Assembly (NCBI RefSeq): GCF_029846715.1
Contig: NZ_JARVWW010000007.1
Span: 186,001-250,000 of the forward strand
DNA length: 64,000 nucleotides
Direction: 5' to 3'
From: Bradyrhizobium nivariense
GTDB lineage: Bacteria; Pseudomonadota; Alphaproteobacteria; Rhizobiales; Xanthobacteraceae
Shown: positions 4,959-14,708 of the stretch, piece by piece
Position numbering within the stretch: position 1 is the first letter of the stretch
Layout of the letters: each line of letters opens with the position of its first letter
The notes under the pieces: generated by a model
The model's input: only the letters and a program-made list of their open reading frames with translations
What the model was told of the DNA's origin: nothing
Database searches by the model: none
Made by a program: the position numbers and the translations under genes

Positions 4959-6029
4959 ATGGCTGAGCGGATCGCTCTCATCACCGGCATTACGGGCCAG
5001 GACGGCGCCTATCTCGCCGAATATCTGTTGTCGCTCGGCTATGTCGTGCACGGCATCAAGCGGCGCTCGTCCTCGTTCAACACCGCGCGGGTCGATCATC
5101 TCTACCAGGACCCGCATGTCGGCAACGTGCCGTTCCTGATGCACTACGGCGACATGACGGACTCGACCAATTTGATCCGCCTGGTGCAGCAGGTCCGGCC
5201 GACCGAGATCTACAATCTGGCCGCCCAGAGCCACGTCGCCGTCAGCTTCGAGAGCCCGGAATACACCGCCAATGCCGACGGCATCGGCGTGCTGCGCCTG
5301 CTGGAGGCGGTCCGCATCCTCGGCATGGAGAAGGAGACGCGGTTCTACCAGGCCTCGACCTCCGAGCTCTACGGCCTGGTGCAGGAGATTCCGCAGAAGG
5401 AGACGACGCCGTTTTATCCGCGCTCGCCTTACGGCGTCGCCAAGCTCTACGGCTACTGGATCACGGTGAACTACCGCGAAGCCTACGGCATGTTCGCCAG
5501 CAACGGGATCCTGTTCAACCACGAGAGCCCGATCCGCGGTGAGACCTTCGTCACTCGCAAGATCACGCGCGCTGTCGCCCGCATCGAGGTCGGTCTCGAA
5601 CAGACGCTCTATCTCGGCAATCTCTCCGCCAGGCGCGACTGGGGCCATGCCCGCGACTATGTCGAGGGCATGCACAAGATCCTGCAGGCCGACAAGCCCG
5701 ACGATTTCGTGCTCGCCACCGGCGAGATGCACTCGGTGCGCGAGATGGTCGAGTTGTCGTTCGCGCAAGTCGGCCGCCGCGTCGCATGGCGCGGGGCGGG
5801 CGTCGAGGAGACCGGCGTCGATGAGAAGAGCGGCAAGACTGTGGTGAAGATCGATCCGACCTATTTCCGTCCGACCGAGGTCGATCTCCTCGTCGGCGAC
5901 GCCAGCAAGGCGCGCGAGGTGCTCGGCTGGAAGCCGAAGCGGAGCTTTGCAGAGCTCGTCGCGGAGATGATGGCGAGCGATCTGGCCGAGGCAAAGCGGG
6001 ACGCGGCGAGTGGCAAACGCACCGTTTGA
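4959..6029 (+). CDS. gmd: GDP-mannose 4,6-dehydratase
   Basis: Converts GDP-D-mannose to GDP-4-keto-6-deoxy-D-mannose, the first step of GDP-L-fucose synthesis, in the cytoplasm. The 356-residue length matches the family. The N-terminus has the NADP motif GITGQDG (10-16) and the Gmd signature [17 protein letters not shown]; the catalytic set is T134/E136 in STSELYG and Y158/K162 in [23 protein letters not shown] and [17 protein letters not shown] are also family signatures. The downstream fcl gene overlaps its end by 20 nt, so the two are surely co-transcribed. Confidence 0.97.
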
Positions 6030-6951
6030 GCTGACAGGCAAAAGCGTCTACGTCGCCGGCCATCGCGGCATGGTCGGCAGCGCGCTTGCGCGCCGGCTCG
6101 AACGGGAAGACGTCAAGCTCGTCACCGTGGACCGCCGCGAGGTCGATCTCTGCAACCAGGCCGCGGTGTTCGACTGGTTCGCGCGCATGCGGCCGCAGGT
6201 GATCTTCCTCGCCGCGGCAAAGGTCGGCGGCATCGTCGCCAACAACACGCTGCGCGCCGAATTCATCTACGACAACATCGCGATCGCGGCCAATTTGATC
6301 CAGGCCGCGCATCAGAACGGCGCCGAGAAGCTGATGTTTTTGGGCTCGTCCTGCATCTACCCGAAGCTGGCACCACAGCCGCTGCGCGAAGATTCCGTGC
6401 TATCAGGCCCGCTGGAGCCGACCAACGAGCCCTATGCAATTGCAAAAATCGCCGGGATCAAGATGGCGGAGGCCTATCGCAGCCAGTATGGCAGCGACTT
6501 CATCAGCGTGATGCCGACCAATCTCTACGGCCCCGGCGACAATTATCACCCCGAAATGAGCCACGTGGTCGCGGCCCTGATCCGCCGCTTCCACGAGGCG
6601 AAGGTTTCGGGCGCGAAGCGTGTCGTCGTCTGGGGCACCGGCACGCCGCGGCGCGAGTTCCTTTATGTCGACGACATGGCGGATGCCTGCGTGCACCTGA
6701 TGAAGACCTATTCGAGCGCCGAGCTGGTCAACATCGGCACCGGCGAGGACATCACCATCGCCGAGTTCGCGCGCATGGTCGCCGAAATCGTCGGCTACAC
6801 CGGCGAGATCGGTTTCGACAGCTCGCGTCCCGATGGCACGCCACGCAAGCTGCTCGACGTCAGCCGCCTCGCCGGGCTCGGCTGGCGCGCGACGACATCG
6901 CTTCACGATGGCTTGAAGTGTGCATACGCGGCGTATTTGTCGCATACGTAG
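6010..6951 (+). CDS. fcl: GDP-L-fucose synthase
   Basis: The bifunctional 3,5-epimerase/4-reductase that completes GDP-L-fucose from the Gmd product. It is 313 residues long with GTG start at 6010, inside the last codons of gmd. Visible motifs are the Rossmann GHRGMVG (17-23), the catalytic GSSCIYP (112-118, with the Ser and Cys of the active site) and Y142/K146 in YAIAKIAG, plus [18 protein letters not shown]. The 20-nt overlap implies translational coupling to gmd. The locus can therefore make fucose-containing polysaccharide. Confidence 0.96.
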
Positions 6952-7126
6952 AATGCAGCAAATGCATGTCGCGTGTTTCAGGAGTTGTCCGCAACGCCTG
7001 TCACGCGCGGCGGCTAAGGTTTATTCGGTTCGAGAAGCAACCTGCCCTAATGTTGGGCGTGCGGCCGGATAGAGAAATGTCTAGGGTGTTCAGTGGAACA
7101 TCCGTCTTCAACGGAAAGAGTTTTTC

Positions 7127-8449
7127 ATGCGAATCGCGATGATCGGAACGGGCTATGTGGGACTGGTGTCCGGAGCCTGCTTTGCGGATTTCGGTCACGA
7201 CGTCACCTGCGTCGACAAGGACGAGAAGAAGATCGCTGCACTTCATCGCGGCGAGATCCCGATCTACGAGCCCGGGCTCGACGAACTGGTGGCGACCAAC
7301 GTCAAGGCCAAGCGGCTTGAGTTCACCACCGACCTGTCGAAGCCGGTCGCGGATGCCGATGCCGTGTTCATCGCGGTCGGCACGCCGTCGCGCCGCGGCG
7401 ATGGCCACGCCGATCTGTCCTACGTCTACGCCGCCGCGAAAGAGATCGCGCAGTCGCTGTCCGGCTTCACCGTCGTCGTGACCAAGTCGACCGTTCCGGT
7501 CGGCACCGGCGACGAGGTCGAGCGCATCATCCGCGAGACCAACCCCAAGGCCGACGTCGTCGTCGCCTCGAACCCCGAGTTCCTGCGCGAGGGCGCGGCG
7601 ATCCGCGACTTCAAATTCCCCGATCGCGTCGTCGTCGGCACCTCCGACGAGCGCGGCCGCAAGGTGATGGGCGATATCTATCGGCCGCTGTCGCTGAACC
7701 AGGCGCCGCTGATGTTCACGGAGCGCCGCACCGCCGAGATGATCAAATACGCCGCCAACGCCTTCCTCGCGACCAAGATCACCTTCATCAACGAGATCGC
7801 GGACCTCTCCGAAAAGGTTGGCGCCAACGTGCAGGAGGTCGCGCGCGGCATCGGCCTGGACAATCGCATCGGCACCAAGTTCCTGCACGCCGGCCCGGGC
7901 TTCGGCGGCTCGTGCTTTCCGAAGGACACCAAGGCGCTGATCAAGATCGCGCAGGACTACGATGTGTCCTTGCGCATCGTCGAATCCGTGCTGGCGGTCA
8001 ACGAGAACCGCAAGCGCGCGATGGCCCGCAAGGTCAGCCAGGCGCTCGGCGGCTCGCTGCGCGGCAAGACCATCGCCGTGCTCGGCCTCACCTTCAAGCC
8101 CGACACCGACGACATGCGCGATGCGCCGTCGATCCCGCTGGTCACGGGCCTGATCGACATGGGCGCGAAGGTGAAGGCCTTCGATCCCGTCGGCATGGAG
8201 CAGGCCAAAAGCGAATTGCCCAACATCACCTATTGCGAGGATGCCTATTCCTGCGCGGAAGGCGCCGATGCGATCGTCATCGTCACCGAATGGGTGCAGT
8301 TCCGTGCGCTCGATCTGGACCGGCTGCAGGCGACCATGGCCCAGCCCATTATCGTCGATCTCCGCAACATCTACCGCCCCGAGGAGATGGCCGCCGCTGG
8401 CTTCGTTTATGAGAGCGTCGGACGTTCGAGCGGGCCGCGCGACGGCTAG
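7127..8449 (+). CDS. ugd: UDP-glucose 6-dehydrogenase
   Basis: Oxidises UDP-glucose twice with NAD+ to UDP-glucuronate. The 440-residue protein has the N-terminal dinucleotide fold GTGYVG (7-12), the signature GTPSRRGDGHADLSYV, KYAANAFLATKITFINEIA and the catalytic cysteine C263 in GFGGSCFPKDTKAL. ATG 7127 follows GGAAAGAG by a normal spacing. It sits 175 bp behind fcl, far enough to have its own promoter. With the epimerase at 3768 it forms a route from UDP-glucose to UDP-glucuronate and UDP-galacturonate. Confidence 0.96.
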   Translation: MRIAMIGTGYVGLVSGACFADFGHDVTCVDKDEKKIAALHRGEIPIYEPGLDELVATNVKAKRLEFTTDLSKPVADADAVFIAVGTPSRRGDGHADLSYVYAAAKEIAQSLSGFTVVVTKSTVPVGTGDEVERIIRETNPKADVVVASNPEFLREGAAIRDFKFPDRVVVGTSDERGRKVMGDIYRPLSLNQAPLMFTERRTAEMIKYAANAFLATKITFINEIADLSEKVGANVQEVARGIGLDNRIGTKFLHAGPGFGGSCFPKDTKALIKIAQDYDVSLRIVESVLAVNENRKRAMARKVSQALGGSLRGKTIAVLGLTFKPDTDDMRDAPSIPLVTGLIDMGAKVKAFDPVGMEQAKSELPNITYCEDAYSCAEGADAIVIVTEWVQFRALDLDRLQATMAQPIIVDLRNIYRPEEMAAAGFVYESVGRSSGPRDG

Positions 8450-8933
8450 CCACGACCGCTCCGCATCGTTCGGTCGAAGTTACTTTCGGTCGATTGTTCC
8501 TCGGGCGGGCGGAGCCGATGACTACTCCCGGGTGGATATGTCAACGGCTCCGTTTTTTTGGTCGGCCCGCTCGGAAACACCGACGATGCGACCGCTAGTC
8601 GATGCACTTGATCTTGTATCCATCGGTCGTTGTCGACTTGCCGGACTCTAGAGGCTGTGGGCGCGGCGCCCCCCTCCCGAACATCAGGCCAGGCGCCTTG
8701 TCCTTTTACATTACCCGCTAATAGCAAGACGAGGAGCAAGAGCCCAAGTGCTCCGACGGAGACAATCAGTTCGGCGAGAAAAGGGGCGGCACCGTGGCCG
8801 AAAATCGCGCGCTCGGCCCTTTGCCATCCGACCGGTGATCGTGCTGCAGAGGGGGTAATTTCAGGACGTCTGCTGGGCACGACGGACAACGACCGATCAG
8901 ACGGTGCCGTTTCTTTCGATTTTGAAGGATCGT
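8450..8933. other. Intergenic region, 484 bp, left boundary of the accessory island
   Basis: No convincing gene. A minus-strand frame here encodes one hydrophobic segment (near 8740-8805) but has no proper start or ribosome site and is treated as unproven. I see no tRNA, integrase site or direct repeat marking an insertion point. Confidence 0.5.
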
Positions 8934-10118
8934 TTATTGCTGCTGAGCTTCTGTTCCGTTGTCCCGGGACAACTTGCGACCCAATGACGGGGCTTCCGCA
9001 ATGACCTCTGCCGCGCTTGCCGCCCAAAGTTCCCTTGCGACAGGCAGGGGGGATATTTGCAGATTCGCCCACCACGCTCTTTCGTCGCCGTTTCGATGCA
9101 AAGCCTGATGATGTGAGCGGCACAGAGGCACAGTAAACTGATCGCTTACTTTGCGGCCTAGCGTTCTAGGTTGGGCGAACTTCAGGTGATGTGCGTCCGA
9201 AGGGGATCGCTTGCAGACCAGGCAGGGATGCTCGCGAACGAAGGCGAGATGCACCTTGCTCCTTTTGCGCGGTGGTTCCTTGGGGATGGCGAGGCCGCTT
9301 TCGACGGCCGCTTGTACAGGCTCAGCTTCGTCTACTTCGGTACCAGCCGGTGGGCTTTGGGCGGCGTCGGAAGCCAAAGCATGGACGGGATCCTGCGCCG
9401 GCTGTCTCTCCCCTGCGATCGCCATGGGATGGGCGGCTAGCTCCAACCGTTCCTGGTAAGCTGCCTCAACTAATAGAGCGTCGACCTCTTGAAGGGTGTT
9501 TTTGATGGGTAGGCTGATCTTGGCCCAGGCTAGGAGATCGTCGGTGCCGGCAAGCTGAGCCAGCAACTGCTCGCGGAGCGCGGCTGAATCCTGGGCCCCC
9601 AAAATTGGCGGCCGGTTCAAGACGCCTTTGGGCGGCTTTCCTTTCGATGGTGGCGACGGTCGCGGCTCAGTAGAGGCCGGTGGTCCGGCAATCGCATCGG
9701 GCGCATCCAGATCGTCCTCGCCTGCGATCCCGACCAGGGCAAATAAGGCATAACGGCGCGCATAGGTTAGCGCCGCCCCCATCCTGTGTGGCGCCTCGAC
9801 ATCCTTTCCGGAGCAGACCGGCAGGTCGGATGAGATCCATTCACCGGAAGCGTGAGCGAGCAGAGTGGTGAGATGGATCTGACCGGTGGCCTGCTCGATC
9901 CGGGTGGTCTGGATGGTGGCAATCTCCTGCTGGCTCAGCGTCTTGCGGACGATGTCCAACCCCGATGCCAAGGAGGCATAGCGAAATGTTCGGTCATCCT
10001 CGCGCGGGAAGGGCGAGCGAATTGTGCCCGTCAATGTCTTCTCCGGGTTGGTCAACTCGGCCTGGGCCTTGGCCAACGCTCCTGCAATCGCGCCAATACG
10101 CTCACTGGACTGATGCAC
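8934..10118 (-). CDS. ERF-family single-strand annealing protein with C-terminal HNH-like zinc domain
   Basis: The N-terminal part (about residues 1-160) resembles ERF-superfamily phage recombinases: a regular helix ([19 protein letters not shown]), then [18 protein letters not shown] and the domain end [26 protein letters not shown] proteins anneal complementary single strands during phage recombination. After a Pro-rich linker, residues about 310-375 carry a CxxC ([18 protein letters not shown]) and [12 protein letters not shown] pattern like HNH or DUF968-type zinc domains. GTG 10118 has GGAGG 6 nt upstream and overlaps the exonuclease stop by 17 nt; a TTG at 10193 is less likely. Phage origin is inferred. 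Confidence 0.78.
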
Positions 10119-10908
10119 GAGCCGCCTCCATCGGTAGAGCTTCAAAGCTGATTGCGCCCGACTTTGATCGCTTGGCTTTGATGCCGTGACCAATCGCTTC
10201 TTTGGCGTCTTCAGGAACGAGCTTCTTCAGCTCAGCCTTGGCGACCTCGTGATTGGCATGAGCTTCGCGAGTGCCGACATATGTTGCGGCTAACTCAGCC
10301 CAGGAGTTGGACGAGGCCATGTCCACGATCTTGATCGCCTCAAGTCGTGGGCGTGGCGTCTCGATCCCGAACAGGTGAGGCGTTTCGCCGGTTTGGACGC
10401 ACCGCCAAAACTTCTCCTCTGCGGTCAGGAGGAGGTGCTGATACAGCGGATCGGCATGGATTGTGATCTCGACCCACTTACCGCCGCCCGTGATGATGGA
10501 AAGCACCGCTGAGCGCGCTGCGATCACCCACATATTGTGCTGAAGCTGGGCCATGTGCTTGTCGGCGGCTGCTTCCTCGGAGAAATTCCAGGGCAGCATG
10601 AACTTGGCCTCATAGACCGCACCAGTCTGCTGAACGCGGCCGTCCAGCGTCGCGCCCATCCATTTGTGGACCGGATGCCTTACCTTGCGCTGGACGTCGC
10701 TAACGATGTGGCCGCTTGTGCGCTCGTACCAGCTCCGGTTGAGGTCCTCGGTGATGCTGCCGAGTTGGACGATCAGGTCGTTGCTGAGGTCCAGGGGCAA
10801 GGCCTCCCCACGCTTCTCACGCCAAAGCCTGATCAGCTTGTCCTGGTCGTCTCCCATGATGATCCGGGCATCGGATCCTCCGATGAATGTGCGGCGGTCA
10901 GCGTGCAT
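10102..10908 (-). CDS. YqaJ-like viral recombinase (lambda-type exonuclease fold)
   Basis: A 268-residue protein of the YqaJ/lambda exonuclease family, part of the PD-(D/E)XK nucleases. The N-terminus [25 protein letters not shown] is characteristic; the core shows a Glu in [14 protein letters not shown], then the D and E-x-K of [20 protein letters not shown] and QLQHNMWV. Such enzymes resect double-stranded ends for a partner annealing protein, here the overlapping ERF gene. ATG 10908 is preceded by GGAGG at a good distance; an in-frame ATG lies at 10920. Divergent from the XRE regulator at 11014. Confidence 0.82.
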
Positions 10909-10924
10909 ATCGTCCTCCATTGAA

Positions 10925-10954
10925 ATAATTTATATAAAAACATATTATTTATAT
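10925..10954. promoter_or_regulatory. AT-rich operator-like direct repeat between exonuclease and XRE genes
   Basis: Two near-identical 11-mers, ataatttatat (10925) and attatttatat (10944), lie 19 bp apart on the same face of the helix in an almost pure A/T stretch. They are directly upstream of the minus-strand YqaJ-like gene and of the plus-strand XRE gene. This is where a phage-type repressor would bind and where both promoters should lie. Binding is inferred only. Confidence 0.4.
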
Positions 10955-11013
10955 GCTTATAGTTTTCAAGAGGGGAATTGAAGATTTTCTTTGCTTGCTG
11001 CATATGCCGGAAG

Positions 11014-11253
11014 ATGAGCATCACCCCAGCGCAATGTCGTGCTGCACGAGGTCTTGTCGGTTGGACGCAACAGCAGCTTGCTGAGCAGGCCGGCATTGGC
11101 ACCGTCGCTGTGCACCAATTCGAGGCCGGTGCTAGTCAGCCTCGTCGCGCAACGCTGAATGTTGTGCGTCGAGCATTCGAGGCAGCTGGCGTGGAGTTCA
11201 TCGACCCAAACGGTGGTGGCGCGGGCGTTCGCTTTCGAGACCCATCTCGGTAG
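11014..11253 (+). CDS. XRE-family helix-turn-helix regulator, small
   Basis: A 79-residue Cro/CI-type DNA-binding protein. Residues 5-60 hold the helix-turn-helix: QCRAARGLVGWTQQQLAEQAG followed by the recognition part VAVHQFEAGASQPRRATLNVVRRAFEAAGVEF. It ends in a Gly-rich turn (DPNGGGAGVRF), a tail often seen in short alphaproteobacterial XRE proteins. ATG 11014 was selected; TTG 10978 upstream would add 12 residues. It is divergent from the phage-type recombination genes and is the obvious candidate to repress them. Confidence 0.75.
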   Translation: MSITPAQCRAARGLVGWTQQQLAEQAGIGTVAVHQFEAGASQPRRATLNVVRRAFEAAGVEFIDPNGGGAGVRFRDPSR

Positions 11254-11352
11254 GCGGTGACAGTTTGCGGTTCGCAGCTCTCGAAGGGGCCGTTCATTGA
11301 CGCGGTGCCTCCACCCGGGGCGGCGATGTGGAGTCCTGATTGATGACGCTTG

Positions 11353-11522
11353 TGCCGCCGAGTCCCAGAGCTCCTTTGCTATCGGTTGAAGCGAGATCTG
11401 CATGTTGGCCCCCATGCTCTCTCGATGCCATGCCGGTGCAGAGCTTGATGATGAGATCGGCAAAGTGAAACAGTGAATCCGTCGCTGAGAATGGCGGGTG
11501 CGCTGGGGTTCGTCTTCGCAAA
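11353..11522 (-). pseudogene. Decayed, frameshifted copy of the HNH-like C-terminal domain
   Basis: Read on the minus strand, the frame ending near 11409 encodes [25 protein letters not shown] and the next frame continues from 11412 as ANMQISLQPIAKELWDSAA. The intact gene at 8934 has [18 protein letters not shown] and [19 protein letters not shown]. The two halves are thus one homologous domain broken by a single-base shift near 11410. The upstream zinc CxxC part is gone. It is a remnant of a second ERF/HNH-like gene or a partial duplication. Confidence 0.7.
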
Positions 11523-11592
11523 CGGGGCGCGCGTACAGACTATCGCCAATGCGGGTGGCCTTTTCGTCTGGAGCAAGGTCGAGCATACTCGT

Positions 11593-12120
11593 TCAACGCC
11601 TGCGCATCTTGGTCGCGAAATACTTGAAGAGCGGGGGCTTGCTGCCCATTGGCGACGGCGGAGGCATATAGTTGAGACCGACCGCGTCAACCAAGCTCCG
11701 CATGCCGTCCGACCAACCGAGCAGCTCGATCATTGAGCGGCGATCGAGCTGTTTGTCCTGGGCCCATCCCTCCGTGAGATCTGCCAACCCGGATAACTCA
11801 TCGCCCGAGAGAGTGGCCAGACGGGAGATGGATGGCGTCGCGTAATAGCGCCGTATGGCTTCGGCTTCGGACGTGCTTATTGTCCGTTTGATTTCCCCTC
11901 GGGCTATAACTGAGCTCAGGATGTCGGCAGCTAATCGACGCTGCCTTTTTCTCTTCACTAAACGAGTCAGTTGCTCCCCTTGTTCGAGGAAGTTATCCAT
12001 TTGCATCCAAAAACTTTGGCTGAAGTCGCGATGAGCGTAGGGAAATGCCGCGACCAGACACGCATATTGTCGGGCGCATTCGAGGATTGCCTCATCAGAG
12101 TCGGACGTCGCATCCGGCAC
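11593..12120 (-). CDS. Hypothetical protein, 175 aa
   Basis: A 175-residue, mostly helical soluble protein with no signal peptide or membrane segment. GTG 12120 has GGGAG about 9 nt upstream. The centre (VKRKRQRRLAADILSSVIARG) is basic, and the C-terminus ends in the basic string TKMRRR. It lies between the decayed HNH-like fragment and three plus-strand unknown genes in the accessory island. I do not recognise a family. Its ordinary codon use suggests it is a real gene. Confidence 0.55.
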   Translation of the reverse strand: MPDATSDSDEAILECARQYACLVAAFPYAHRDFSQSFWMQMDNFLEQGEQLTRLVKRKRQRRLAADILSSVIARGEIKRTISTSEAEAIRRYYATPSISRLATLSGDELSGLADLTEGWAQDKQLDRRSMIELLGWSDGMRSLVDAVGLNYMPPPSPMGSKPPLFKYFATKMRRR

Positions 12121-12404
12121 TGCTTAGTGCTCCCGGCAAGCTGTTTCAAAATGGTAGAAACTTGCCTCTGAGAGATGGCCGTCGGCGATTAATCTTCCAA
12201 TATCGCTGGAGAAATTAGTTGGGGGCCGTTGGCTGGGCGAAGACTCTATCTTTGCGGCTAAGACGTAAGGATTCGCCTGTTGGTAACATTGCCTTGGTTC
12301 AAGAGTTTGCTACGACATTTCCTTGTGGATTGCTTCGGTCTCGGGTCCTTGGCGTTCGCAAACCGGCTTAAATAGCATTTTTGCATTCGTTCTGCGGACT
12401 GGCA

Positions 12405-13229
12405 ATGCCAACTTACCACAAAGCGCAACTCGACGAGATGTCCATGCCTTTTGTGGAAGTATGGGACCTTATGCGCAAAGGTTTGGAGCCTGTCGTACGT
12501 CGCGTCCTGACGAAGCTGAAGTTCTATAAGGAGCGGGACCTCGAACCTGTCCCCGCTGAAGTGCCCCTTTCTGATGAGGAGGAGGCCGAGCTTCGACCTG
12601 TGGTCTCAGCATTGACGGTGGCCGCGGTGCTGAGTGAAGAAATGAAACTTGGCCCCCTCGTCTCAACGCTTGCGCGTGTGCGTAAGAGGCCTGGCCTCTT
12701 CCGTCAAGGTGCGCTTCCGGCTGCTGTTTTGTGGGAGCTGGCTCAAGATTATCAACGTGATTGGGAGCCGCCCGGAACATTCAGCATGGACATTTGGGGC
12801 AGCGAGCAAACGGCCGTTCCCTACATCCGAGTTGCCCCAAACGATGAAGCCGTTGCGGCCGCAGCAGCTCGCGGGCTGGAGCGTAATCAAAAGACCCGGT
12901 CACCTGGTCGTCCCGACCACCCTGCGCACCAGGAGCTCGCTAAACGGCTTGCTGTCGTTTTTGGAAAGAGCGAGCTAGGATTCGCGCGGTGCCTGCTCGT
13001 CGTCGATTGCAAGGACGGCGTGCGGTACGCCGAGGGAGGTGCATTCTTCGACTTCTTGAAATTGGTTCTCCCGCCCCTGCGCGACTTCTTGAGCGAGCGG
13101 CGCTTGCCGCCGGTCACCACCGAATCAATTGTGCGGGCTGCCCAAGCGTACGTAGCCGAGCGCCTTGCGGCCCATCCGCCATCCACACCCGATTATTCCC
13201 ACGGGTCCAAGACTGAGCTTTCTGACTGA
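12405..13229 (+). CDS. Hypothetical protein, 274 aa
   Basis: A soluble protein with no recognised domain. It contains an acidic segment (EVPLSDEEEAELRPVVSAL) near residue 60, a Pro/Gly-rich middle and a C-terminal helical region. ATG 12405 was chosen as the first ATG in frame; ribosome site is weak, and ATG 12438 is possible. It is followed after 44 bp by another unknown gene with a strong ribosome site, and those two plus the gene at 14241 look like an operon of the accessory island. Confidence 0.55.
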   Translation: MPTYHKAQLDEMSMPFVEVWDLMRKGLEPVVRRVLTKLKFYKERDLEPVPAEVPLSDEEEAELRPVVSALTVAAVLSEEMKLGPLVSTLARVRKRPGLFRQGALPAAVLWELAQDYQRDWEPPGTFSMDIWGSEQTAVPYIRVAPNDEAVAAAAARGLERNQKTRSPGRPDHPAHQELAKRLAVVFGKSELGFARCLLVVDCKDGVRYAEGGAFFDFLKLVLPPLRDFLSERRLPPVTTESIVRAAQAYVAERLAAHPPSTPDYSHGSKTELSD

Positions 13230-13273
13230 CATCCCTACAGTGATTGGCTCCACGTATCACAAGGAGTCAAATC

Positions 13274-14254
13274 ATGTTCGACGAAAAGTCTTCACTGTGC
13301 GCCGCTGACGCGGTGACGGAATTGGCCGGCGTTGCTGATCAGGACCCGTCGAATCACGTTCCGCAAGCCAATCTGTTTGCCAGCGCTGAGCAAGCTCTCG
13401 CGAACGCTCCTGATGCAAAGGCTACCGTCGCTCCCGACGCCGAAGGCCCCCTCTTGAAGGATGCCGGAGAGAAGCAGGACGAGGACGACGAAGAAGCGGA
13501 GGTGGGAGCGGAGGACGAGCAAGAGGAAGATGAGAAAGAGGAAAGCCTCGAGGATATCTACCTAGGTCTTCAGGAGGACGAAGAGACCCGCAACTACATG
13601 CCTGACTTTATCAAAAGAATGCTGGACAATCCGCCGTTGCCGGCTGGCATGACGATCGATTTCTTCCGTAACATCCATACCTCCGTCGCCGAGAGCATGC
13701 TGCCCCACCGTCCGAAGTCGGACCTGGAGTTTCTCGCGGTTTTCAATGCTACCAAGGCGATCACGCGCCTGATGTGGCTCGACGACCTCATCAATCGTCT
13801 CGTCCACAACAACCGCCGCGAGGCGGTGGAAGCCTTGCATCACAAGCTGCACGCAGTTGTGCCGTCCTCGAAGAAGGAGAAGGACGAGCATGACCGTTTT
13901 GCGAAGGAAGTTGCTATGGATTACTTCGCCAGTCCCGATCATCGCCAGAAGTTCAGCTCGAGCCTGGAGCGTGGTGGCTTTGGCGCCGACGCAGTCGACA
14001 CCGAGGCGTTCCAGCGCTCCCTTCCTGGGTTGGGGAAGATCGAGACGATGCGGAAAGCAGCGATCCGGGAACGCGATCAGGCCTTGAAAGAGCTCGAGCG
14101 AGCCTATTCCTCCCGTGATCCCGAGCAGCGTATGCCGCTCAGTCTTGCTGCAATGCGTAATTTCTTCGACGAGATGCGGGAGGAGAAGAAGTTGGAGCGG
14201 CAGGAACGCATGCTGGAGGAATCCAAGAAAGCGGCTCAGGATGGCGACACGTAA
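13274..14254 (+). CDS. Hypothetical acidic protein, 326 aa
   Basis: ATG 13274 follows AAGGAG by 8 nt, which fixes the start. Residues about 60-100 are strongly acidic (EDDEEAEVGAEDEQEEDEKE). The remainder is helical and charged, with a C-terminal coiled-coil-like stretch (EEKKLERQERMLEESKKA). No catalytic motif or known domain is visible. Its stop overlaps the start of the next gene by 14 nt, indicating coupled translation. The function is unknown. Confidence 0.62.
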   Translation: MFDEKSSLCAADAVTELAGVADQDPSNHVPQANLFASAEQALANAPDAKATVAPDAEGPLLKDAGEKQDEDDEEAEVGAEDEQEEDEKEESLEDIYLGLQEDEETRNYMPDFIKRMLDNPPLPAGMTIDFFRNIHTSVAESMLPHRPKSDLEFLAVFNATKAITRLMWLDDLINRLVHNNRREAVEALHHKLHAVVPSSKKEKDEHDRFAKEVAMDYFASPDHRQKFSSSLERGGFGADAVDTEAFQRSLPGLGKIETMRKAAIRERDQALKELERAYSSRDPEQRMPLSLAAMRNFFDEMREEKKLERQERMLEESKKAAQDGDT

Positions 14255-14591
14255 GCAGATCGCAGCAAACCGACGCAATGCGGCCCGAAGCACCGGGCCG
14301 CGAACGCAAGAGGGCAAAGCGCGCTCGCGAATGAATGCGCTTCGCCACGGACTAGCGGCCAAGCAGCCGGGCTCAGACGAGACCTGGGATCAGCGGTCTT
14401 CGGCCACACCCGCGGACATCTTCGCGCGGATCGTTCAGATCGAGAATGAGCGCCTTAAATTGGCCAGCTCCACTGAGGAACTGCTGACAGCTCAACTTCC
14501 GCAGCTGGTTCTTGAAAAGCTGGAGAGGCTTTCCGCCTTGGACCGCTATCTGCAGCGCGCTCTATCGATGCTGACAAAAGCTGCCGAGTAA
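14241..14591 (+). CDS. Small basic protein with the RRNAARSTGPRT motif
   Basis: A 116-residue protein beginning at ATG 14241, inside the end of the preceding gene. Its N-terminus ANRRNAARSTGPRTQEGKAR, followed by NALRHGLAA, is a motif I recognise from many proteins of unknown function, often near mobile elements. The C-terminal half is helical (LVLEKLERLSALDRYLQRAL). The motif is Arg/Asn-rich and could bind nucleic acid, but that is speculation. It closes the accessory island before the core gene at 14709. Confidence 0.68.
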   Translation: MATRKQIAANRRNAARSTGPRTQEGKARSRMNALRHGLAAKQPGSDETWDQRSSATPADIFARIVQIENERLKLASSTEELLTAQLPQLVLEKLERLSALDRYLQRALSMLTKAAE

Positions 14592-14708
14592 CGTAACACC
14601 GACGGCGATTTCTCTGAAAGTTCAGTATCATGGAGCGCGCTTGTACGACATTTGGGTTCGTTCTGCGCAATGGCCCCCGACGCGCCCTACCCAAGCCGGA
14701 GGACGGTC

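Follow-up and report, generated by a model that had tools for sequence, protein, structure and literature searches.

What is an exonuclease–annealase gene pair of phage type doing by itself between two sugar-metabolism genes of a bacterial chromosome? The question is raised by a 64,000-nt stretch of a chromosomal contig of Bradyrhizobium nivariense (hereafter the window; positions without another label are its coordinates), where genes for a YqaJ-type exonuclease, an ERF annealase and an XRE-type regulator, together called the module, lie in an island between ugd and the gene for aldose-1-epimerase. The sequence-only reading, an earlier interpretation of these bases, had suggested that it may be a retained recombination module; we find that it is one member of a genus-wide, multi-copy family that appears to be under purifying selection and is linked to surface-glycan genes. 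Because its relatives often lie beside surface-sugar genes in other species, the module may help bacteria swap their coats: we tentatively favor, at somewhat less than even probability, a Red/RecET-like module that is kept by selection in glycan loci and exchanges glycan cassettes, together with itself, between strains.

An acquired island between ugd and the aldose-epimerase gene

The window contains, from about 8520 to about 14697 (edges approximate), an acquired island of about 6 kb, inserted between two genes of sugar metabolism. In 11 of the 29 best-scoring epimerase loci of relatives (75 of 98 genomes, its own included, gave a match), ugd and the epimerase gene are adjacent, with about 70–230 bp between the alignment ends (ugd is partial in L048); the gene order at this junction is hence not conserved in all relatives, and the region is an island, as had been claimed. 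Among the remaining loci, an ERF remnant is found upstream of the epimerase gene in 1/29 and neither ugd nor ERF in 17/29; some of the 29 loci reach less than 700 bp upstream. The GC content is lower inside the island than in its flanks. Alignment of the edges, which places them near 8520 and 14697, further indicates that part of the ancestral ugd–epimerase spacer was replaced and not duplicated, and no duplication of an attachment site was seen in this alignment. The extent proposed earlier (8934–14591) indeed falls within the island, which is somewhat larger; the added part includes a probable module tail (8595–8899, minus strand), 73% identical to the DNA downstream of one other module (L107, the one locus matched among those compared).

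A Red/RecET-type gene pair with a divergent regulator

Judging from its genes, the island carries a two-component recombinase of the Red/RecET type with an ERF annealase. The first component, encoded at 10102–10920 on the minus strand, is a nuclease of the YqaJ/lambda-exonuclease family (PF09588, 49.6 bits against a cut-off of 22; PHROG 434, RecE-like, 122.6 bits), although its score against NCBIfam TIGR03033 (42.2 bits) is below the cut-off of 68.05. Its residues D93, E104 and K106, which we take to be catalytic, are conserved in no fewer than 44 of the 45 copies. The second component (8934–10193, minus strand; start codon uncertain) matches ERF in its N-terminal part (PF04404, 62.2 bits, cut-off 25; also PHROG 2324) and DUF968 in its C-terminal part (PF06147, 53 bits, cut-off 27.8), and is therefore considered to be a single-strand annealase fused to an HNH nuclease; the Cys and His residues of the HNH part are kept in 111–116 of 114–118 aligned copies. 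The two genes are co-directional and overlap by 92 nt as listed (10102–10193), the true ERF start being possibly further in, and their order is repeated at other module loci. From their families, exonuclease and annealing activity would be expected of the two proteins.

Divergent from the pair is the gene of a small XRE-type regulator (10978–11253, plus strand; HTH_31, 30.6 bits with a cut-off of 27, and HTH_3, 28.1 bits, also above its cut-off). The exonuclease overlapping an annealase and facing away from an XRE gene, as described by the sequence-only reading, is thus borne out, with all three above the Pfam cut-offs. The A+T-rich spacer between XRE and YqaJ (10921–10977) is presumed to hold a divergent promoter/operator; an operator could not be pinpointed, as the best palindrome in it is not significant (p 0.40), and 7 of 33 XRE–YqaJ spacers reach p 0.05.

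Phage or bacterial module?

In phage modules such as RecET, lambda Red and P22 Erf, a YqaJ or lambda-exo nuclease adjoins an annealase with a divergent XRE gene, and the island resembles them in this order. It is unlike them in being chromosomal and multi-copy, and none of its genes was recognized as serving replication, packaging or the virion. Indeed, scans of its open reading frames (ORFs) with Pfam, PHROG, NCBIfam and PADLOC gave no integrase, structural or replication family, in agreement with what had been noted from the sequence, and no packaging gene was found with Pfam and PHROG. The linker of the ERF protein gives a weak match to a minor tail protein (E 0.013), with no other virion, portal or tail match in the island; tRNA and Rfam searches (gathering score) had no match in the window. 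A whole prophage at this place is ruled out, since the island has neither an integrase nor a virion gene, and the lack of an integrase likewise speaks against a phage satellite of the phage-inducible chromosomal island type; a recombination and control module of phage type, which had been proposed in place of a whole prophage, agrees with these scans. Nor do we regard the region as an anti-phage defense island: PADLOC finds no effector, and its matches are those of XRE to regulator models (best “control protein”, E 3.4e-13) and of the unknown protein p6 to JetD (E 0.016).

Among viral contigs in IMG/VR, 15 carry the module, 14 of them shorter than 9 kb and the other 55.6 kb long. Metagenome contigs that bear such genes and are labelled “viral” can, in fact, be pieces of a bacterial chromosome. 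The 14 short contigs have no exact terminal repeats of at least 10 nt, and a small circular or terminally repeated element was accordingly rejected. A phage carrying the module was also rejected, given that the 55.6-kb contig shows no capsid gene by eye (no family search was run on it). This contig (L093, L137–L139) encodes a giant repetitive protein and proteins resembling glycosyltransferases, contains the module twice, and looks chromosomal by eye.

Could the modules be what is left of the early parts of decayed prophages, whose recombination and packaging genes persist longest, their position in glycan loci being due to phages that insert there or bring genes for glycan conversion? We give this idea an appreciable chance, well short of even. 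ERF and YqaJ are phage families, many copies are decayed, and genes related to terminase (20/73 sources) and DUF5681 (23/73) are found together with modules, both of these and a ParB-methylase gene lying upstream of a subset of them. On the other hand, none of 50,697 phage records has a match covering 80% of the ERF–HNH protein; among phage YqaJ proteins, the closest shares 42.6% identity and stands in a different gene order; and no tyrosine integrase or named portal, capsid or tail protein is present among the 25 commonest Pfam/PHROG families of the module neighbors (several of the PHROGs being unnamed). The purifying selection and the polarity toward gmd described below also speak against mere remnants.

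A genus-wide family of modules

Relatives of the YqaJ protein are present in 96 of 243 Bradyrhizobium genomes (at least 95% completeness, its own included), with up to 6 matches per genome. Compared with the window copy, the ratio of nonsynonymous to synonymous substitutions (dN/dS) is 0.03–0.18 for YqaJ (23 comparisons) and 0.07–0.18 for ERF (computable in 18 of 21); these values are rough, since dS exceeds 1 in most comparisons, and point to purifying selection on the module copies. Among 40 loci from genomes of few contigs, 14 have a divergent XRE gene as in the window, and 26 have a conserved leader instead. A protein of about 200 residues (X200) follows ERF in many modules of the leader type and in some of the XRE type; HGLb proteins were dropped as relatives of X200, the profile link being weak (26%).

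We characterized the neighborhood from 150 of 188 neighboring ORFs, a few per cluster being kept, which removed most genes for sugar short-chain dehydrogenases/reductases (SDRs). The 25 commonest families include glycosyltransferases, nucleotidyl- and acyltransferases, O-antigen ligase, transposases, terminase, ParB-methylase and a serine recombinase, the last of which lies beside three module loci and accounts for the PHROG labelled integrase (2 ORFs). Random control loci are led by transporters and general metabolism, with four NAD-epimerase matches. In nine genomes, chosen mostly for having gmd-linked modules, a tyrosine integrase lies within 25 kb of 1 of 15 module copies. As a separate observation, an Mrr-like restriction endonuclease gene stands beside an XRE gene near some modules (L106:5292-6227, L030:6945-7874 and L036:5858-6766; Pfam was run on the L106 copy only).

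Linkage to surface-glycan genes

Of 52 module loci, 15 carry homologues sharing at least 55% identity with gmd, fcl, ugd, the epimerase, pgm or a sugar SDR, vs none of 17 loci taken at random; when the identity limit is lifted, the numbers are 17/52 and 1/17. The link is most evident for gmd (GDP-mannose dehydratase): among 69 copies, some of them fragments, in 43 genomes, 28 have gmd within 25 kb, compared with 0.81 expected upon circular shift (maximum 7 in 2000), and 20 have it within 10 kb (0.33; maximum 4 in 2000). This statistic covers 43 of 44 genomes (G227 was dropped) of 1–20 contigs each, with gmd matches on second contigs dropped and pieces of one gene merged. An epimerase-centered hotspot was set aside as weaker, given that 4/69 copies lie within 25 kb of an epimerase gene and 0.40 are expected.

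The arrangement also has a polarity; namely, gmd is on the 3′ side of the module in 20 of 21 pairs within 10.9 kb and in 23 of 28 within 30.9 kb. The window follows this rule: the flanking genes at 4959–8449 on the plus strand, presumably gmd (4959–6029), fcl (6010–6951) and ugd (7127–8449), converge on the 3′ end of the module, with 0.5 kb between the ends of ugd and ERF, in the same arrangement as at L186. On a YqaJ tree of 45 rows (40 fetched loci, the window and four more), gmd linkage requires 17 changes, at least 13 of them forced, and shuffled labels are similarly scattered (mean 15.3); gmd-linked copies do not appear to form one clade, and the tree argues against a single origin of the linkage.

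Glycan loci might be hotspots of exchange in any case, with the module passively hitch-hiking there along with other accessory DNA. Transposases do occur nearby too, as that would have it, and yet in the same nine genomes gmd is found at most 25 kb away from 12 of 15 modules but from only 1 of 71 clusters of tyrosine integrases; the former is no unbiased rate, since the genomes were picked mostly for gmd-linked modules, and integrases on second contigs were left out. With the polarity and the purifying selection also opposed to it, hitch-hiking seems to us quite improbable.

Next to these genes, we also noted a locus (L028:1-294) where, at the edge of a contig, the start of the epimerase gene runs into a segment from within gmd; this is either a recombination joint or an assembly artefact.

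Traces of recombination

Second copies of module parts were seen by eye among 74 partly overlapping sources, in direct orientation in 12 loci and inverted in 2, not counting L027 (two fragments) and the X200-like partners that face the other way upstream of XRE. In one genome, two module copies at different sites are 88.7% alike over 2.9 kb, and one of the two has what we take to be sugar genes between two module 3′ ends. Sharp ends of a unit at −225 and about +2450 to +2504 are not claimed.

Several copies in a genome, similar or sister copies among them, together with the empty site and the serine recombinase at three loci, would also suit a selfish mobile element that moves by a borrowed or undescribed mechanism and prefers the neighborhood of gmd/fcl, the glycan genes being its landing zone only. 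We consider such an element improbable, though less so than hitch-hiking: the 14 short contigs have no exact terminal repeats, the spacer at the window site was replaced and not duplicated, and no integrase is common to the sites examined.

How the module might exchange glycan cassettes

If the Red/RecET-like module is indeed kept for glycan exchange, the protein families suggest how it would proceed. Resection of DNA ends would fall to the YqaJ exonuclease, annealing of single strands that are similar but have diverged to the ERF part, and trimming or nicking of the joint to the HNH part fused to it. XRE would hold the module in the off state; in sister modules, a leader RNA over the ribosome-binding site may take this role. 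Once switched on, the machine would use the module ends and the conserved glycan genes as homology to swap glycan cassettes between strains, and the module would carry itself along with them. The gene content, the empty site, the spread over the genus, the purifying selection, the linkage and polarity to gmd and the direct second copies of module parts are taken from the data, whereas enzyme activity, induction and a part in glycan exchange are inferred. A bolder version, in which the module is a dedicated coat-switching machine, i.e., an annealing recombinase resident in the surface-glycan loci that uses module 3′ ends and gmd/fcl/ugd homology for RecA-independent cassette exchange, repressed by XRE in one kind of module and by the leader RNA in the other, is doubtful in our view but has an appreciable chance.

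Several points weigh against exchange of glycan cassettes by the module. No exchange event with a known donor and recipient was identified; 41 of the 69 copies have no gmd within 25 kb, and the gmd statistic counts related species as independent. Many copies are broken, and that in the window is without X200. What selection maintains may be a mobile life elsewhere, and the repeated module ends may just be the limits of functional conservation. The terminase, DUF5681 and ParB-methylase genes beside a subset, furthermore, point to a phage past, and the serine recombinase at three loci is to be counted here as well.

Reshuffling of O-antigen and exopolysaccharide loci is usually ascribed to host recombination and chance. 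If our proposal is true, a regulated resident recombinase oriented to glycan genes would provide a machinery dedicated to diversifying the coat, which might affect phage resistance and legume symbiosis.

Known systems offer partial parallels. The Red-like bet/exo genes (s065/s066) of SXT/R391 are, like the module, an exonuclease and an annealase on a bacterial element, and are described in PMC2786100 as helping to form hybrids of similar elements; SXT/R391 is, however, an integrating conjugative element, whereas the module has no common integrase (conjugation genes were not searched for), uses ERF–HNH as its annealase and occurs in many copies in glycan loci. Rad52-like phage annealases recombine diverged DNA, according to PMC3945230. 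Fusions of DUF968 to Erf, Rad52 and RusA are already in print, the relevant passages of PMC4118853 giving no bacterial genomic context. “Grounded” prophages, phage relics that are portrayed in PMC6379469 as hotspots of gene acquisition and local exchange, share the idea of local exchange; what we have here is a defined module with a specific genomic neighbor and not a whole relic. Beyond the domain fusion in PMC4118853, the titles and abstract openings in our literature search held no description of such a module.

A structured leader in modules without XRE

Modules of the leader type have in common a conserved leader of about 165 nt upstream of YqaJ (e.g., L182:7978-8155 on the plus, L186:9283-9457 on the minus and L106:7791-7961 on the plus strand). 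In its last 73–84 nt, GGTATCTC is predicted to pair with GAGATACC, enclosing inner hairpins and covering the YqaJ ribosome-binding site. In an alignment of 33 of 35 sequences (L168 and L171, which also fit the model, were omitted), standard pairs make up 91.1% of pair cells vs 35–54% when the pairing is slid, helix 3 being paired at only 74.5%. Covariation, which can be inflated by relatedness, is seen at four pairs with 11 cells changed on both sides, as opposed to 1.3 and 2.1 in shuffles, none of 500 being as high. The leader RNA may keep YqaJ off in sister modules by covering the ribosome-binding site. A leader peptide was rejected in place of RNA, as the reading frame hits stops in many copies.

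The leader has no match in Rfam (gathering score for 6 loci, E 0.5 for 3 loci), and its model finds none in the window and none in the rest of the same genome at E 0.001. Over 36 genomes, the model hits seven places: five before YqaJ copies, one beside fcl and a weak one in another family; a match with six mismatches in L173 was disregarded. The place beside fcl is a leader fossil (L203, G002:C1:6919878-6919953), kept in a genome with no YqaJ match next to fcl and, by eye, a gene for a HAD-like phosphatase; we count it among the traces of recombination.

The second copy of the HNH end and the proteins p6–p9

The remainder of the island holds a degraded piece and four further proteins, p6–p9. 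The “decayed paralog” of the sequence-only reading does exist, as a degraded copy in direct orientation at approximately 11300–11590 (minus strand), and covers the HNH C-terminal part of ERF only. Similarly, the four proteins called unknown have indeed no Pfam match at E 0.1, but some of them belong to families (those of p8 and p7) that accompany such modules repeatedly.

The gene of p6 (11593–12120, minus strand) has relatives upstream of XRE in L095, L096 and L180. The other three form a group on the plus strand, the first being p7 (12381–13229, its start perhaps at 12405), for which the predicted structure is of low confidence (predicted local distance difference test, pLDDT, 36) and gives no usable model. 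Among the 98 genomes, p7-like proteins occur in five others, with a p9-like protein beside p7 in 5/5 and a p8-like one in 3/5; a p7 relative lies no more than 14 kb from YqaJ in 4 of the 6 genomes having one (its own included), and p7-p8-p9 directly follow ERF in L167. A 24-nt direct repeat brackets the group, before p7 (12380–12403) and after p9 (14651–14674), both on the plus strand, and its 18-nt core has only these two sites in the own 9-Mb genome (at most one mismatch). This repeat was not retained as a general cassette site; elsewhere among the compared loci, only single matches with two mismatches were found, in L018 and L082.

The second of the group, p8 (13274–14254), is a protein of the “LLPGE” family that is predicted to be helical (pLDDT 75, with a confident helical core); in a fold search, it had no BFVD or PDB match with E below 0.001. 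Profile comparison (hhalign) relates it to X200 proteins at 98% and to a second X200-like set at 99%, and its family recurs at YqaJ–ERF modules. The last is a small protein, p9 (14241–14591), which also recurs at modules and has the motif NRRNAxxSTGPxTxxGKxxSRxNALRHGL. This motif defines an N-terminal family, two scanned proteins of which have no Pfam match, and is found in the window at 14241–14591 as well as at L093:9357-10040 and L042:10659-11300.

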